A DNA stretch of 64,000 nt from Cellulomonas alba (lineage in GTDB: Bacteria; Actinomycetota; Actinomycetes; Actinomycetales; Cellulomonadaceae). Location: positions 2,397,461-2,461,460 of the forward strand of contig NZ_JAUCGQ010000001.1 of the NCBI RefSeq assembly GCF_030362835.1, given 5' to 3'. Shown piece by piece: positions 40,153 to 46,527 of this stretch (the first letter of the stretch is position 1; each line of letters begins with the position of its first letter). A model generated the notes under the pieces. That model did no database searches and was not told where the DNA came from. It saw nothing but the letters and a program-made list of their open reading frames with translations. The translations under genes were made by a program, and so were the position numbers.

Positions 40153-40225
40153 GCGCCTGTAGCTCAGGGGATAGAGCACCGCTCTCCTAAAGCGGGTGTC
40201 GGCAGTTCGAATCTGCCCAGGCGCA
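40153..40225 (+). tRNA. tRNA-Arg (anticodon CCT)
   Basis: A perfect cloverleaf: acceptor stem GCGCCTG/CAGGCGC, D stem GCTC/GAGC, anticodon stem CCGCT/AGCGG with loop CTCCTAA (anticodon CCT, reading AGG), and T stem GGCAG/CTGCC with TTCGAAT. The discriminator is A; CCA is not encoded. Its 3' part, from the anticodon loop onward, is duplicated at 46420, marking it as the integration site of the downstream element. Confidence 0.97.
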
Positions 40226-40226
40226 C
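40184..40226 (+). repeat. Left attachment site (inside tRNA-Arg)
   Basis: 43 bases from the anticodon loop through the tRNA 3' end. The first 30 (40184-40213) are identical to the right copy at 46420; of the last 13 bases, two differ. Confidence 0.88.
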
Positions 40227-40297
40227 AGTGTGTTGATGCAGGTCAGGCGCTCTGCAACTGCAACCCGTGAGTCCGGCGCGATGCCCCCTAGGGCCTC

Positions 40298-40318
40298 GTG
40301 GTCAGCATGTGGTCAGCA
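40298..40318 (+). repeat. Left arm-type repeats
   Basis: Two direct copies of GTGGTCAGCA (40298-40307, 40309-40318), 11 bases apart. The right end of the element has GTGGTCAGCA at 46318 and GTCAGCA at 46331. Such paired direct repeats inside the ends are typical of tyrosine-integrase arm sites. Confidence 0.6.
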
Positions 40319-40443
40319 GGGTGGTTTCCCGCGGCGCGTTCGTGGCCTGAGCCGGACGCGCGAGCGTCGACGTATGAGCCCCTATGCCGCGTTGGCCGTC
40401 AGCGGGCCGCGACTCGACGACTGAAGCGAGCTCGGACACACGA

Positions 40444-40490: not shown

Positions 40491-40766
40491 CTAGATCAGG
40501 ACGATCTCGCGGAACGTCGCGGAGTCGCCTTGACCCTCAACGATCATGACCTTGCGGCCCGCTGCCTGCTCGTCAACGACGAGCTTCCAGACGGCGATGG
40601 CGTGGCGGATCGCTTCGGTGATGCTCAGGCCCTTCTTCGCCGCCGTGCTCTTGAGGGCGGCGGCGACAGTCGGCGCCAGATTCACGGACAGGCGGACGAC
40701 TCGGCTCTCGCCGGCGTCCGACGCGGTCCCGGCAGCGGGCCGCGCGTCGTCGGTAGTGGCGATCAT
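40491..40766 (-). CDS. Ribbon-helix-helix (CopG/Arc-like) protein
   Basis: A 91-residue small DNA-binding protein. The RHH core is VVRLSVNLAPTVAAALKSTA followed by AKKGLSITEAIRHAIAVW: a beta strand, helix A, turn and helix B. A C-terminal extension (EGQGDSATFREIVLI) follows. The ATG at 40766 has AGAAGGA upstream, better than the ATG at 40784. It is the only regulator in the element and diverges from the cargo, so it may control the 40785-41123 promoters. No toxin partner is adjacent. Confidence 0.75.
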   Translation of the reverse strand: MIATTDDARPAAGTASDAGESRVVRLSVNLAPTVAAALKSTAAKKGLSITEAIRHAIAVWKLVVDEQAAGRKVMIVEGQGDSATFREIVLI

Positions 40767-40784
40767 CTTGAGTCCTTCTCTCAT

Positions 40785-41189: not shown

Positions 41190-41442
41190 ACTTCACCCAC
41201 AGGCGTCCTCCGACGACCTCCTGGACGCTGCGACACTCGCGGCGCAGCGACAGACGCAGGGGACAGTCATGTTCGAACTCATCGAGGACGAGGCGCCGGC
41301 CTTGCTCGATGGGTCCGCCCACTTCGCGCCGCTGGCGCTCGTCGAGCACTGGGACGTCACCAATGAGGATGTTCCCGTCTGCGAGCTCTACTGGCCGCTC
41401 GTCGTCGAACTTGGCCCCCACATGCTCAAGGGGGACCTGTGA
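41167..41442 (+). CDS. Unknown acidic 91-residue protein
   Basis: A soluble, acidic protein with no family I recognise: a helical start (SSDDLLDAATLAAQRQTQG) then FELIEDEAPALL and VCELYWPLVVELGPHML. It overlaps the leader ORF upstream and the membrane protein downstream (GTGA at 41439-41442), so the three are one translation unit. It could be a partner or inhibitor of the membrane protein; this is inference from coupling only. Confidence 0.5.
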   Translation: MTSTARAELHPQASSDDLLDAATLAAQRQTQGTVMFELIEDEAPALLDGSAHFAPLALVEHWDVTNEDVPVCELYWPLVVELGPHMLKGDL

Positions 41443-41798
41443 GCACGGGCGGCGCCTTTGCCGACCCGGCGAACGAGTTGTCGGAGGATTCTGAACCGTT
41501 CGAACTCGACGGGCGCCCGACGGCGCCCACGGCCGACCCCGCAGGGCCTTCGATCGCGCCGAACCTCGAGTCGGCAGCACTGATCAAGGCCGAGCACCAG
41601 AAGCAGCAGATACGCGTCACGACCTGGCTGCTGGTCATGGTTGCCGTCAGCGGTCTATGCACGTTCCTTGCCGCGGTGTTCGCTCCAGCAAGCGCCTGGG
41701 AGCGTGTTGACCGCGCAGCGACCCTCATCCTCGTGCCCTTGCTCACCCTCCTCGGGACCGCCGTGGGGTGGTACTTCAGCGAGAAGCGCCGCGACTAG
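41439..41798 (+). CDS. Unknown two-TM small membrane protein
   Basis: 119 residues: an acidic soluble N-terminus (1-55), a KAEHQKQQIRV amphipathic stretch, then two membrane helices (about 60-82, TTWLLVMVAVSGLCTFLAAV; about 93-113, AATLILVPLLTLLGTAVGWY) and a short SEKRRD tail. The layout resembles small effector or sensor proteins of defence modules, but no family motif is visible. The GTG start overlaps the preceding stop. Confidence 0.55.
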   Translation: MSTGGAFADPANELSEDSEPFELDGRPTAPTADPAGPSIAPNLESAALIKAEHQKQQIRVTTWLLVMVAVSGLCTFLAAVFAPASAWERVDRAATLILVPLLTLLGTAVGWYFSEKRRD

Positions 41799-41981: not shown

Positions 41982-42986
41982 ATGTCGATCGAACGAGCGC
42001 TGGCCCGCTTCGAGAGCGTCATCGGCGCGGCATGGCCGGAGCCATTCGGCAGCCTGCGGCCAGGGCTGGCCGACGCGGAGATCGAGGAGCTGAGCGCGGC
42101 TGTCCGACCGTTCGTGCTTCCACGCCAAGTTGAAGCGCTGTACCGGTGGCGCGGAGGCGGAGACGCCGGGGTCTTCGGTGGATGGCGTATGCGAAGCCCG
42201 AAAGAGCTGATCTCCTGGTATCGGTTCACGACCAGCAAGTTGGAGCAACCGCGCACCTGGTTGCCGGTGTTTGACGACCAGATCGTCAACGTCGTCACGC
42301 TGGACACCGCGGGCGAGGAGCCATCGGACCCGTCGGTCTGGTACGGCCACACTCACGATGCATACGTGAGTCGGCTCTTCGATTCCGTCGAGGCCCTGCT
42401 CGACGTCGTTTGCGATGCTGCCGAAGCCGGTGTACTCAGCGAGACCCAGCCGGGCTCGCTCAGGCTGGCCGAGGTCGAATCCCTCGACGGACGGGCCTGG
42501 ACCGAACTTCGGCTGCGGCGATGTCCGGGAGCCTTTCGCTGGCCCGACCCACCACCGGGCACATATCTGGGCAGGTTCACCGAACCGGCTTGGCCGCGCC
42601 CATGGCTCGCCGCAGTTGGCATCACTGACGAGAGCCTGACGCTGCGCGGAAGGACACATACGATCGCCGAACTGATCGCGGCAGCTGCATCGGGTCCGGT
42701 CACAGGAACCATTCGGGGCCAAGTGGTAACCGGCTCAGGTGGCCTCGGGTGGTGGAGTCCGGTCGTCACAGACGGAAGCGCAGAGTTGATTGTCTACTGC
42801 GACACGAAGCTCGTGCCCATCGCTCCAACAGTGGGTCAAGAGGCAGAGTTTGACGTCTTGCTCTCCTCCGCGGAGAAGCCCGAGCCATCCGCGGACGACG
42901 ATCCACAGATCGCCGCGATCGCCAACCGGTTCCGCCCCTCGCTACCGACTGCTGTCGCAAACGCAGCACGACCGGCCCGCCCGTGA
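41982..42986 (+). CDS. SMI1/KNR4 (SUKH)-like protein
   Basis: 334 residues. The N-terminal about 150 residues fit the SUKH fold: LADAEIEELSAAVRPFVLPR, ALYRWRGGGDAGVFGGWRM, WLPVFDD, the VVTLDTAG strand and DSVEALLDVV near its end. The remainder has no assignment. SUKH proteins are often immunity proteins for polymorphic toxins, but no toxin is adjacent. The ATG at 41982 has CAGGAGAG upstream; a longer reading from 41820 begins with Ser/Arg-rich non-coding-like sequence. Confidence 0.65.
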   Translation: MSIERALARFESVIGAAWPEPFGSLRPGLADAEIEELSAAVRPFVLPRQVEALYRWRGGGDAGVFGGWRMRSPKELISWYRFTTSKLEQPRTWLPVFDDQIVNVVTLDTAGEEPSDPSVWYGHTHDAYVSRLFDSVEALLDVVCDAAEAGVLSETQPGSLRLAEVESLDGRAWTELRLRRCPGAFRWPDPPPGTYLGRFTEPAWPRPWLAAVGITDESLTLRGRTHTIAELIAAAASGPVTGTIRGQVVTGSGGLGWWSPVVTDGSAELIVYCDTKLVPIAPTVGQEAEFDVLLSSAEKPEPSADDDPQIAAIANRFRPSLPTAVANAARPARP

Positions 42987-43406: not shown

Positions 43407-43601
43407 GTGACCTACGTCGCCTCCGTATTCGAACGGGCATGCCTCGCGACTGCCGAGAACCGATTGTGGGCAGTCCAGCACGAGGTCGAGGCGCATGCAA
43501 CGACCCGTAACGACTTCTCGGCCCGTATCCACGCCGAGCCTGCGTTCGCTGCCGATGACGCGGCGCAACTGGACGCGACTGTAGGTGATCCAGCAAAGTG
43601 A
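43407..43601 (+). CDS. Possible small protein coupled to the large membrane protein
   Basis: 64 residues from a GTG, mostly helical and charged (SVFERACLATAENRLWAVQH). It has no recognised domain and a poor ribosome-binding site. The only support is its four-base overlap with the start of the 894-residue gene (GTGA at 43598-43601). It could be a leader, a remnant of a longer gene, or chance. Confidence 0.35.
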   Translation: MTYVASVFERACLATAENRLWAVQHEVEAHATTRNDFSARIHAEPAFAADDAAQLDATVGDPAK

Positions 43602-46282
43602 AGTCGCGGCACATCCTGTTGTTGGCCGCCAGTTTCATACTGAGCGTGTCGTTGCTGGCGGTGATTCACCACACGGGGGATCCGGCTTGGCTCAAGTCGA
43701 GCCTTCCCGCCGTAGCCGGGGCCGACGGGATTATGTGGCAAGTGCAGACGACGTTCCTGTCGGTGGGATTCGCGGGGTTGGCCATTGCTGCGCAGCTATT
43801 TGCTGAGGCGCCCTTGGCGATCGGTGCCTCCAGGGGAAGGGTTCTCAGCTTCATTGGGGCAGGCTGGTTTGTCGGCGTCGGCCTCGTTGCCAACGCAGTC
43901 ATTGCTATCGAGACAATTTGGCTGCCCAGCGACCTCGGCATGATCGGTATCGCGTTCGCCTGGTTCGCCCCGTCGGTCGTCTTGCTGGTGGTTTCGACGG
44001 TCAAGCTAATGCAGCTCTTCGGGCACCCGTCCCTTCTGGATGAAGTAGTGCGCTCGTCGTTGGTGGACTCGCTTTCCAGTCGCTTGAGCGAGGTGTCGCG
44101 CAAATATGCCGACGCCAGGGAACGACTGGAAGGCCTGTTCGCGTCGGAAGGACTCATGGGAGTGCCCAAGGCCTCGGCTGTCACGCTGAGAGTGCCGGTT
44201 CCTGCTGGTGGCAGGGTCATCAGAGCCATTAATCCCAAGATCGCGCGCCAGGCGATCGACTCCCTCGGGCTGCGCGCCACCGAGGGCAGCCCGACGAACA
44301 GCGCCGCGGCCGAGGTGTTCCTGTCGCCACAGGTCACGCTTGATATTGAACCGGGTGATCGCACCCGACTTGGTGAATCGGCTTTTCGTGTCATTACATC
44401 AAATGCGCTCGACGCGGCGACGACTGGCCGGATTGTCCGACTCCTCCAATCCAGCATCGAGTTCGAGCCCTCGGGCTCGGTCACACCAGACGAAGAGACC
44501 GATCGTGAGATCGCCACCCTGAAAGACGCGATCGGCACGAACCTTCGATCCGGCGCGCTAGCGACCGCCGAACGGGCCTTGGAGTTACTTGGCCACGTCG
44601 TTCGAGGAGTGTGGATGGCCGAGCGCGAGAGCCCGGACTCATCACGCCGGGCGTCGTTCACACGACGTGACTGGTTGTTCCGCAGCGTTGGCGAAGTGGA
44701 ACAGGATGTCTTGCTGTCACCTCGTGTGGCCGACGTCTTCGTCGGGGCAGCGATGACCCGTGCTATCGAAGCTCCTCGCACCGGCTCGACGGAGTACGTC
44801 GATGAGTGCCTTCGAAGTTTCACGAGGTTGTGGTTCGACGTGCTGCGCCACGGAGATCCTGACTTCGATTCGGTGGTGTCGCGTATCACCACGTGCGTCC
44901 AGAATTTGGCCGCGTACTCCTACTCGGCGGCCGAGGAGAGCGACGACCTTCAAGCGCGGGGAACCTGGGCCATGGTCGAACTCGTAAAGCTGGCTCTGGA
45001 CGCCAAGAAGCCGGCGGCCGCCAAGATCGCGGCGCTGGAGTTGAGCGCCCTATTTGAGTTCGATCGAGGAGGCTCCAGCCGATCTCACGTCCGGGGTGGC
45101 CAACTGGTCCTTTCCGGATGGCTCGACTACCTCGCCGACAAGCACGACGATCGTGATCCAGCTGACGCGAGCCTTCGGGCACTGGTGACGCCCCGTGGTA
45201 CGTGGTCAGAGATCCTCGGTGCGCGTGCCGCGGCAGAGCGGGGAGCCGTGCCCTTCAGTCGCTGGGACTGGTGGGAGATGAAGTCAACAACATCAAGCGG
45301 TGTGCAGGCCCTCCAGCTTTCCCATTACATCGACCGTGCTCTGTTGTCCGCGCTCGCGTCGTCTTACGGCCCCCTGCCACCTGCCGACGATCAGGAAACA
45401 GCGTCCGAGTACAAGCGTTTCCTAAGTATCTTGACGGACGGTGATCGCGAACTGAATGCCCAGGAAGACGGACTTAAGCGGAGGTTCGCTGAGGCGATTG
45501 CAAAATGGGACGCGGCCGAAGACGGGCGCCTGGCCGTGGAGCCCTTGTCTCAGACGCGAATTGACGCGCTAGGAACTGCGCTCCGTGAGACGTTGGATCA
45601 GCGGTCGCGGCTTGCTGCCGAAATTCCCGTCGTCGAGGACGTGCCTGCCTCGGCGAACACGTCGCACCCCATTCTCGGAATGAACTTCCGAGTCCCGAGG
45701 CTTTACCTGGTCGAAAAGATCTTCAACCAAACCTTTGCTGACCCCACAGAACTTGGTCGAATGATCGCGCAGGGTTTCGCGGAAGGTGAGGAGCAGAGGA
45801 TCGTTCGTGAGCTTCGCTCACTGCGAGACGACGTCCTGGAACCGGCGGCCTCCGCGATCCGGAGTCAGATCGAGGCCCTCGCAAGTGAAGCTGAGTACTA
45901 CATCTTGCTCGCTCCGTACGGTGGCCTGGACATCCACGAGTGGTACTCCGTGGAGTTCAGGGAAGTGTTGGAAAGTGTGACCCACATCGAGACCGGCGTC
46001 CTTGACGGCGAAGCGATCCTCTTTGATCGGCGTACGACGCTCACGTCCTGCCGCAAGCCCGAAGAGAAGGAGGGTCTCTCGCCCGTCGACGGCACATCTA
46101 TCGCCATGGGCGTGTTCGAGGACGTTCAAGGCGGTGACGAGCCGCAAGTGCGTGTTGAGACGGGGGAGTACTTCGCGGTCTGGCCGGGTGACGCTCCGCG
46201 CGTGTTCCGTTTCGGCGCCGGGGCTGTGGCCACTGAGGGCGCCCATGCTGATGAGGAGTCCACGGATCCCGCGGAGGGCTGA
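43598..46282 (+). CDS. Large four-TM protein of unknown function, element cargo
   Basis: 894 residues. Four membrane helices lie at about 5-23, 50-69, 82-105 and 113-135. A charged linker with likely coiled-coil (SLSSRLSEVSRKYADARERL, about 156-175) follows. The rest, about 700 residues, is cytosolic, mainly helical and without NTPase, nuclease or protease motifs that I can find. A beta-rich end (about 800-894, GVLDGEAILFDRRTTLTSC) is followed by an acidic tail. Codon use is less GC-rich than in chromosomal neighbours. Being the largest cargo gene of an island at a tRNA, a defence or niche function is plausible but unproven. Confidence 0.6.
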   Translation: MKSRHILLLAASFILSVSLLAVIHHTGDPAWLKSSLPAVAGADGIMWQVQTTFLSVGFAGLAIAAQLFAEAPLAIGASRGRVLSFIGAGWFVGVGLVANAVIAIETIWLPSDLGMIGIAFAWFAPSVVLLVVSTVKLMQLFGHPSLLDEVVRSSLVDSLSSRLSEVSRKYADARERLEGLFASEGLMGVPKASAVTLRVPVPAGGRVIRAINPKIARQAIDSLGLRATEGSPTNSAAAEVFLSPQVTLDIEPGDRTRLGESAFRVITSNALDAATTGRIVRLLQSSIEFEPSGSVTPDEETDREIATLKDAIGTNLRSGALATAERALELLGHVVRGVWMAERESPDSSRRASFTRRDWLFRSVGEVEQDVLLSPRVADVFVGAAMTRAIEAPRTGSTEYVDECLRSFTRLWFDVLRHGDPDFDSVVSRITTCVQNLAAYSYSAAEESDDLQARGTWAMVELVKLALDAKKPAAAKIAALELSALFEFDRGGSSRSHVRGGQLVLSGWLDYLADKHDDRDPADASLRALVTPRGTWSEILGARAAAERGAVPFSRWDWWEMKSTTSSGVQALQLSHYIDRALLSALASSYGPLPPADDQETASEYKRFLSILTDGDRELNAQEDGLKRRFAEAIAKWDAAEDGRLAVEPLSQTRIDALGTALRETLDQRSRLAAEIPVVEDVPASANTSHPILGMNFRVPRLYLVEKIFNQTFADPTELGRMIAQGFAEGEEQRIVRELRSLRDDVLEPAASAIRSQIEALASEAEYYILLAPYGGLDIHEWYSVEFREVLESVTHIETGVLDGEAILFDRRTTLTSCRKPEEKEGLSPVDGTSIAMGVFEDVQGGDEPQVRVETGEYFAVWPGDAPRVFRFGAGAVATEGAHADEESTDPAEG

Positions 46283-46419: not shown

Positions 46420-46462
46420 CTCCTAAAGCGGGTGTCGGCAGTTCGAATCGGCCCAGTCGCAC
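46420..46462 (+). repeat. Right attachment site (tRNA 3' fragment)
   Basis: A 43-base copy of the tRNA-Arg 3' end with two mismatches. It lacks the tRNA 5' half, so it is not a gene. Confidence 0.88.
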
Positions 46463-46527
46463 AAGGTTGAGGTTCGGTGTGCGTTGGAGCTAGCGCCTCG
46501 GCCGAGACCGTGGGGCCACGCGGACCG

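Follow-up and report, generated by a model that had tools for sequence, protein, structure and literature searches.

HK97 folds are known from the capsids of tailed phages and herpesvirus-type viruses and from encapsulins, and families with this fold commonly escape detection of kinship by sequence profiles. The fold occurs together with transmembrane (TM) helices in Family 3 encapsulins of Mesorhizobium, which have an MFS-like C-terminal extension of four to five predicted TM helices and are encoded in natural-product clusters (PMC8346489). A phage capsid protein triggers the CapRel defense, and the authors of that work recognized the SECphi27 capsid protein from its AlphaFold model (DALI Z about 17); the same paper also cites Lit/Gol (PMC9712102). 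We found no relevant report of an encapsulin or HK97 fold in phage defense in the open-access, peer-reviewed literature. For the membrane protein family DUF2254 we found neither a described function nor a solved structure, a predicted knot alone being discussed (PMC11184937).

Here we describe an 894-residue protein encoded in a window of 64,000 nucleotides of the Cellulomonas alba genome, in which a DUF2254-like membrane module and a capsid-like domain are predicted within one chain. Taking all of the evidence together, we read it tentatively, with a little less than even confidence, as a stand-alone mobile anti-phage protein, that is, a membrane-anchored capsid-fold protein that would engage the phage capsid.

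The gene, its relatives and its island

The open reading frame runs from 43598 to 46282 on the forward strand, exactly as an earlier note on this DNA had placed it, and full-length relatives occur in other genera. It starts with GTG at 43598, 5' of which lies a ribosome-binding-site-like sequence (AGGTGAT). Compared with the copy in Humibacillus, identity at codon positions 1, 2 and 3 was 81, 85 and 49%, a pattern indicating that this is a real gene under purifying selection. The gene had also been described as preceded by a coupled small ORF. A 64-residue frame (43407-43601) does overlap its start (GTGA), but no relative of that frame was found at any homologous locus; it was rejected as a coupled partner for want of conservation, and is probably not a gene.

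Searches of Pfam, PADLOC, NCBIfam and PHROGs with the 894-residue protein gave no usable match. One member out of eight matched CitMHS (1.3e-3), which was dismissed as noise from TM composition, PDB sequence matches to FliM, CAM1, lectins and MotA (E 0.03-1) were rejected, and PDB sequence searches were otherwise empty. The protein showed no recognizable signature of catalysis or of a pore. Nor did it match any transporter, chaperone or metabolic protein of known kind, which left the earlier view of a sensor or effector at the membrane unrefuted.

Ten further actinobacterial genomes encode full-length relatives (22-73% identity). Six loci with the gene came from a pattern scan that covered 84,980 species genomes; they lie in Humibacillus (73% identity), Actinopolyspora righensis (64%), Nocardia (64%), Microbacterium sp. 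EST19A (58%), and Cellulomonas chitinilytica and Nocardioides gilvus (about 23% each). Surveys of the genus and family (149 and 222 genomes) showed it in three genomes, the window's own included, and samples of the order, class and phylum (396, 395 and 396 genomes, ignoring matches below 21 bits) gave four real further matches. Copies in genomes G425, G436, G621 and G034 share 64, 63, 40 and 26% identity with the window protein. The closer relatives thus stand at 73, 64, 64, 64, 63, 58 and 40%, and a diverged group at 22-26% over full length. The match in G670 and locus L009 are one record, counted once, and the resulting alignment (A3) holds 11 proteins, window protein included. The same-genus copies are 23-26% identical to the window protein, whereas the Humibacillus copy is 73% identical; since the window gene is nearer to another family's copy than to the two of its own genus, these comparisons indicate that the gene has moved horizontally. 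It is also rare and sporadic. No copies were found in phage, plasmid and viral-contig collections; the phage and viral-contig sets gave only chance-level matches at E 5.

The gene had been called the largest cargo of an island, and island status was borne out by lower GC content (62-66%, against about 73%) and by a duplicated tRNA 3' end. The integration site is a tRNA-Arg(CCT) gene (40153-40226, forward strand; ARAGORN), whose 3' end forms a left attachment repeat of 44 nt (40184-40227), with a 95% identical direct copy on the right (46420-46463), giving an island of 6.2 kb. All three same-genus genomes with the gene carry it on an island that occupies tRNA-Arg(CCT) and has its attachment site in duplicate. 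In the C. chitinilytica island a tyrosine integrase adjoins the tRNA and relaxase-like ORFs are present in the same element, the G034 island has integrase fragments only, and in the window island tblastn with the integrase of C. chitinilytica as query detected none. Integrase arm-like repeats (GTGGTCAGCATGTGGTCAGCAG, 40295-40320) are common to the window island and the element that C. chitinilytica has at this tRNA; in blastn of the island against locus L008 they matched L008:15619-15711 and L008:9609-9636, where they form a repeat pair. These common repeats next to the attachment site suggest that the window island is probably a derivative, mobilized by an integrase related to that of C. chitinilytica.

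Other genes of the window island are a candidate CopG/Arc-like repressor of 97 residues (40491-40784, reverse strand; PHROGs E 0.01, weak), a small membrane protein of 119 residues with weak DUF2157 similarity (41439-41798, forward; Pfam 4.7e-5, below the gathering cut-off), and a 334-residue SUKH-1 (SMI1/KNR4) domain protein (41982-42986, forward; Pfam 7.2e-6, above the gathering cut-off). No recognized toxin partner accompanies the SUKH-1 protein in this island. When the window island was compared with the other loci by blastn, only the 894-residue gene and the attachment ends matched, and a conserved operon of the SUKH and small membrane genes with the 894-residue gene was rejected.

Predicted domains of the protein

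AlphaFold modeling of the whole protein on A3 gave a mean pLDDT of 76.5 and a pTM of 0.58. The model comprises TM helices within residues 2-142, one long helix (144-182), a domain of beta structure (195-290), further helices (297-648), and an alpha/beta domain (649-872, taken below as about 649-876). The TM module was modeled at low confidence (pLDDT about 50-70), and the count of four helices, as the earlier note had it, rests also on hydropathy, with peaks above 1.4 at residues 5-24, 51-69, 86-104 and 114-132 that coincide with the four predicted helices. About 700 cytosolic residues without recognizable catalytic motifs had been proposed to follow as a large helical domain. The region does contain the helical stretch from 297 to 648, but it is not a single featureless helical domain, as it includes a beta domain and, in the last quarter of the protein, a capsid-fold domain.

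Residues 1-394 (43598-44779, forward), with the four TM helices, the long helix and the beta domain, resemble DUF2254. By hhalign against eight DUF2254 proteins, residues 2-394 aligned end to end over 347 columns with a global P of 2.7e-7, which as a single-comparison value is not a database E-value, and a score of 39.0, compared with 8.4 for a reversed profile and 12.9 for the best of 20 block-shuffled profiles. The local score was 40.5 (at most 27.4 in controls) and came from the beta domain rather than from the hydrophobic helices. None of eight members gave a Pfam match to DUF2254 (PF10011), and residues 1-394 are probably a distant relative of DUF2254, not a member by the Pfam criterion. 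Residues 395-648 (44780-45541, forward) form the modeled helical stretch, with weak Foldseek similarity to helical-repeat proteins.

The C-terminal domain (residues 649-876; 45542-46225, forward) is predicted to have the HK97 capsid/encapsulin fold by AlphaFold, Foldseek and VIA-align. With the whole-protein model, the best Foldseek match was the Pyrococcus furiosus encapsulin 2e0z (E 6e-5; VIA Z 14.3). Folded alone on its own alignment, the domain reached a pLDDT of 87.3 and a pTM of 0.82, and gave 81 PDB matches with E at or below 1e-3, the best 50 of which were all encapsulins, engineered forms of them, or HK97-fold capsids. Against 2e0z the lone domain aligned over 195 residues at 3.1 A and 15% identity (VIA Z 14.5), and Z values of 13-14 to many encapsulins extended over chain residues of about 10-265. 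In BFVD, where E values reached 1e-8, named matches were mostly phage capsid proteins and the rest were uncharacterized.

Comparison by hhalign with five actinobacterial encapsulins showed no sequence relation (probability 0.1%), and none of eight members matched Linocin_M18 (PF04454), which defines Family 1 only. We infer homology of the domain to HK97-fold proteins from the fold only. This lack of sequence-level encapsulin similarity, together with an alignment of only 11 sequences, would suit the view that the structure predictor created a spurious match and that this is just an ordinary helical membrane protein. We consider that very improbable: the whole-protein and lone-domain predictions agree, the lone domain has the high pLDDT and pTM given above, its five models lie within pLDDT 84.5-87.3 with no templates used, and the matches listed are HK97-fold throughout. 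We regard the predicted architecture, a four-TM and beta module followed by a scaffold of helices and ending in the complete HK97 fold, as very probably correct.

Integration sites and neighboring genes

At tRNA-Arg(CCT), a second attachment copy was found 3-15 kb away in at least 17 of the 37 same-genus genomes searched. Thirteen islands at this site (L036-L048) were retrieved and the main cargo of eight was run against PADLOC, giving strong matches in five. These were a Septu system (PtuA 4e-123 with PtuB 1e-53), Dsr1 (5e-47), HEC-06 (2e-64), NsnB (1e-54) and HEC-03B (2e-46). From these matches, tRNA-Arg(CCT) is a defense-island hotspot in this genus. Cargo at this site that had no PADLOC match comprised proteins of 1084, 399 and 381 residues (L041:1344-4598, L043:1693-2892 and L047:1768-2913).

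A. righensis, G425 and G436 carry the gene directly after ychF. In the last two genomes, repeats of the ychF end split the DNA into short cassettes; one cassette of G436 (L022) contains the 894-residue-type gene alone and the neighboring one AbiH alone, and in G425 (L021) AbiTii and ApeA-like genes follow the gene. In G621 (L024) a CBASS cyclase (1e-122) and NucC (8e-78) lie less than 4 kb from the gene, and locus L006 has an LmuA-like neighbor (1e-6). The Microbacterium gene (L007) stands alone beside tRNA-Leu, and no defense match was found among the neighbors tested at L004. The neighbor test took in L004, L006, L021, L022 and L024, and excluded L005 and L009.

The 3' end of ychF is itself a hotspot for insertions in G425's family (L021:9639-17531, L022:7467-11987, L076, L078, L079), where short cassettes, often with a single gene, are set apart by repeats of the ychF end plus AGGTTATTCGGCTACGGAACGTGGTGGAGTTCCG. 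The joint motif was present in 21 of 60 genomes of that family, and gave no match in a reversed control. Cassette contents include AbiH, AbiTii/ApeA, an OLD nuclease (7e-94), a HigBA-like pair and a 1273-residue protein, and a large serine recombinase adjoins the motif in L078. The 1273-residue protein (L079:3823-7644) is alone in its cassette, has no Pfam or PADLOC match, and is a candidate defense gene. In A. righensis (L005:9690-9735), where SGLASGGKK comes after VVEFR, the insertion seems to have taken the place of the normal C-terminal residues of YchF, and so to have altered the end of this conserved GTPase.

No neighbor of the gene was conserved across the 11 loci, and no phage head genes were recognized in the neighborhoods. 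The gene had been proposed as the centre of any novel system here, an expectation that had to be given up: there is no conserved multi-gene system and the gene travels alone. Judged from its surroundings, it is stand-alone cargo where defense genes gather, and genes of this type either accompany known defense genes or take their place. The hotspot location, and the AbiH, AbiTii/ApeA and CBASS/NucC genes adjoining relatives, give indirect support to a membrane sensor or effector in a defense context. No known defense model of PADLOC or NCBIfam matched the protein. Cargo of integration islands is not always defense; on this genomic context, we nevertheless regard a defense role for the 894-residue protein as reasonably likely.

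These surroundings also bear on two readings in which the protein would not defend its host against phage. The first is that it serves the mobile element, as a superinfection- or transfer-exclusion factor or as an island-stabilization factor. The gene is mostly at or near integration sites and the C. chitinilytica element has its integrase and relaxase-like ORFs, which would fit, but the gene occurs in unrelated elements (tyrosine-integrase islands at tRNA-Arg, ychF cassettes, and beside tRNA-Leu) and is kept where an integrase is undetectable, leaving this reading quite improbable. The second is a membrane-tethered encapsulin, whose C-terminal domains would form a shell or part-shell at the membrane, storing or enclosing cargo. 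Among the matches listed the closest solved structures are encapsulins, and Mesorhizobium Family 3 proteins with four to five predicted TM helices set a precedent, although their TM helices are C-terminal and their genes lie in biosynthetic clusters (PMC8346489). No conserved neighboring gene encodes a cargo enzyme, which makes the tethered encapsulin less likely; the gene is moreover stand-alone and sporadic on integration islands, and about 650 extra N-terminal residues would overfill a closed shell. We rate this reading, too, as improbable.

Proposed function and comparison with known systems

In the anti-phage reading that we prefer, the four-TM module would anchor the protein at the membrane with its HK97-fold end in the cytosol. 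During infection, this domain may bind or co-assemble with newly made phage major capsid protein. Capsid assembly might then be poisoned at the membrane, or the helical scaffold might switch the four-TM module so that the membrane is permeabilized and the infected cell stopped. Capsid engagement is in keeping with the known role of major capsid proteins in triggering bacterial immunity (PMC9712102); on the predicted fold, such engagement by the HK97-fold domain is conceivable but doubtful. Membrane permeabilization as the output is somewhat unlikely, and so is the broader idea that the HK97 fold was recruited to immunity, with a membrane-anchored capsid mimic recognizing phage capsid subunits and poisoning their assembly or damaging the membrane. 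In that case the protein described here would be a bacterial counterpart of capsid-derived restriction factors such as mouse Fv1.

Within the close clade, the HK97-fold domain is 61% conserved, compared with 52-72% elsewhere in the protein. A hypervariable domain as the signature of a sensor was therefore rejected; as the domain is no more variable than the rest, nothing in the alignment points to an arms-race surface. Conservation within the protein is highest in the TM2 region (residues 51-75), at 98%. Both observations suit a different reading, the main rival, in which the domain is an oligomerization module, a five- or six-fold ring, of a DUF2254-like channel, and sensing takes place elsewhere, for example in the helical region. 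HK97-fold proteins form pentamers and hexamers, and this reading fits the same defense context of neighbors and hotspot; the entire HK97 fold has been retained, however, beyond the needs of a ring, and we think it rather unlikely.

An HK97 fold joined to a membrane module and carried as stand-alone cargo of defense hotspots would put the fold to a new use, and it suggests a mechanism in which a virus would be recognized by means of a copy of one of its own structural units. The protein also adds a gene family that has no library match, and the two integration sites, tRNA-Arg(CCT) and the ychF 3' end, are places to seek further unnamed defense genes. In the resources searched, the predicted architecture of this protein has no counterpart, and the mechanism is put forward as a hypothesis.

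Known proteins resemble the 894-residue protein in part. The DUF2254 proteins share four TM helices, a beta domain with a PGxxxxxGxxxxxV-like motif and then helices, in the same order, but those compared are of about 420-480 residues and have neither the helical extension nor the HK97-fold domain. CapRel-SJ46 is similar in proposed logic only, being one protein with a phage capsid protein as trigger; it binds the capsid via a C-terminal antitoxin domain and modifies tRNA, and has no TM module or capsid fold (PMC9712102). HK97-fold phage capsids share the predicted fold (HK97 prohead, Z about 12; phage HRP29, Z 12.5), but no sequence kinship of phage major capsid proteins with the 894-residue protein was detected and its gene lies outside a prophage. 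Family 1 encapsulins (P. furiosus, Thermotoga maritima and Mycobacterium tuberculosis) likewise share the predicted fold, along almost the entire encapsulin chain (Z 12-14.5, 3.1-4.2 A); they differ in that the 894-residue protein adds an N-terminal membrane and helical part of 650 residues and is not accompanied by a cargo gene. The nearest published fusion, with an HK97 fold and TM helices in one protein, is the Mesorhizobium Family 3 encapsulin, whose TM part is C-terminal and which is not found on defense-type islands, unlike the protein described here.
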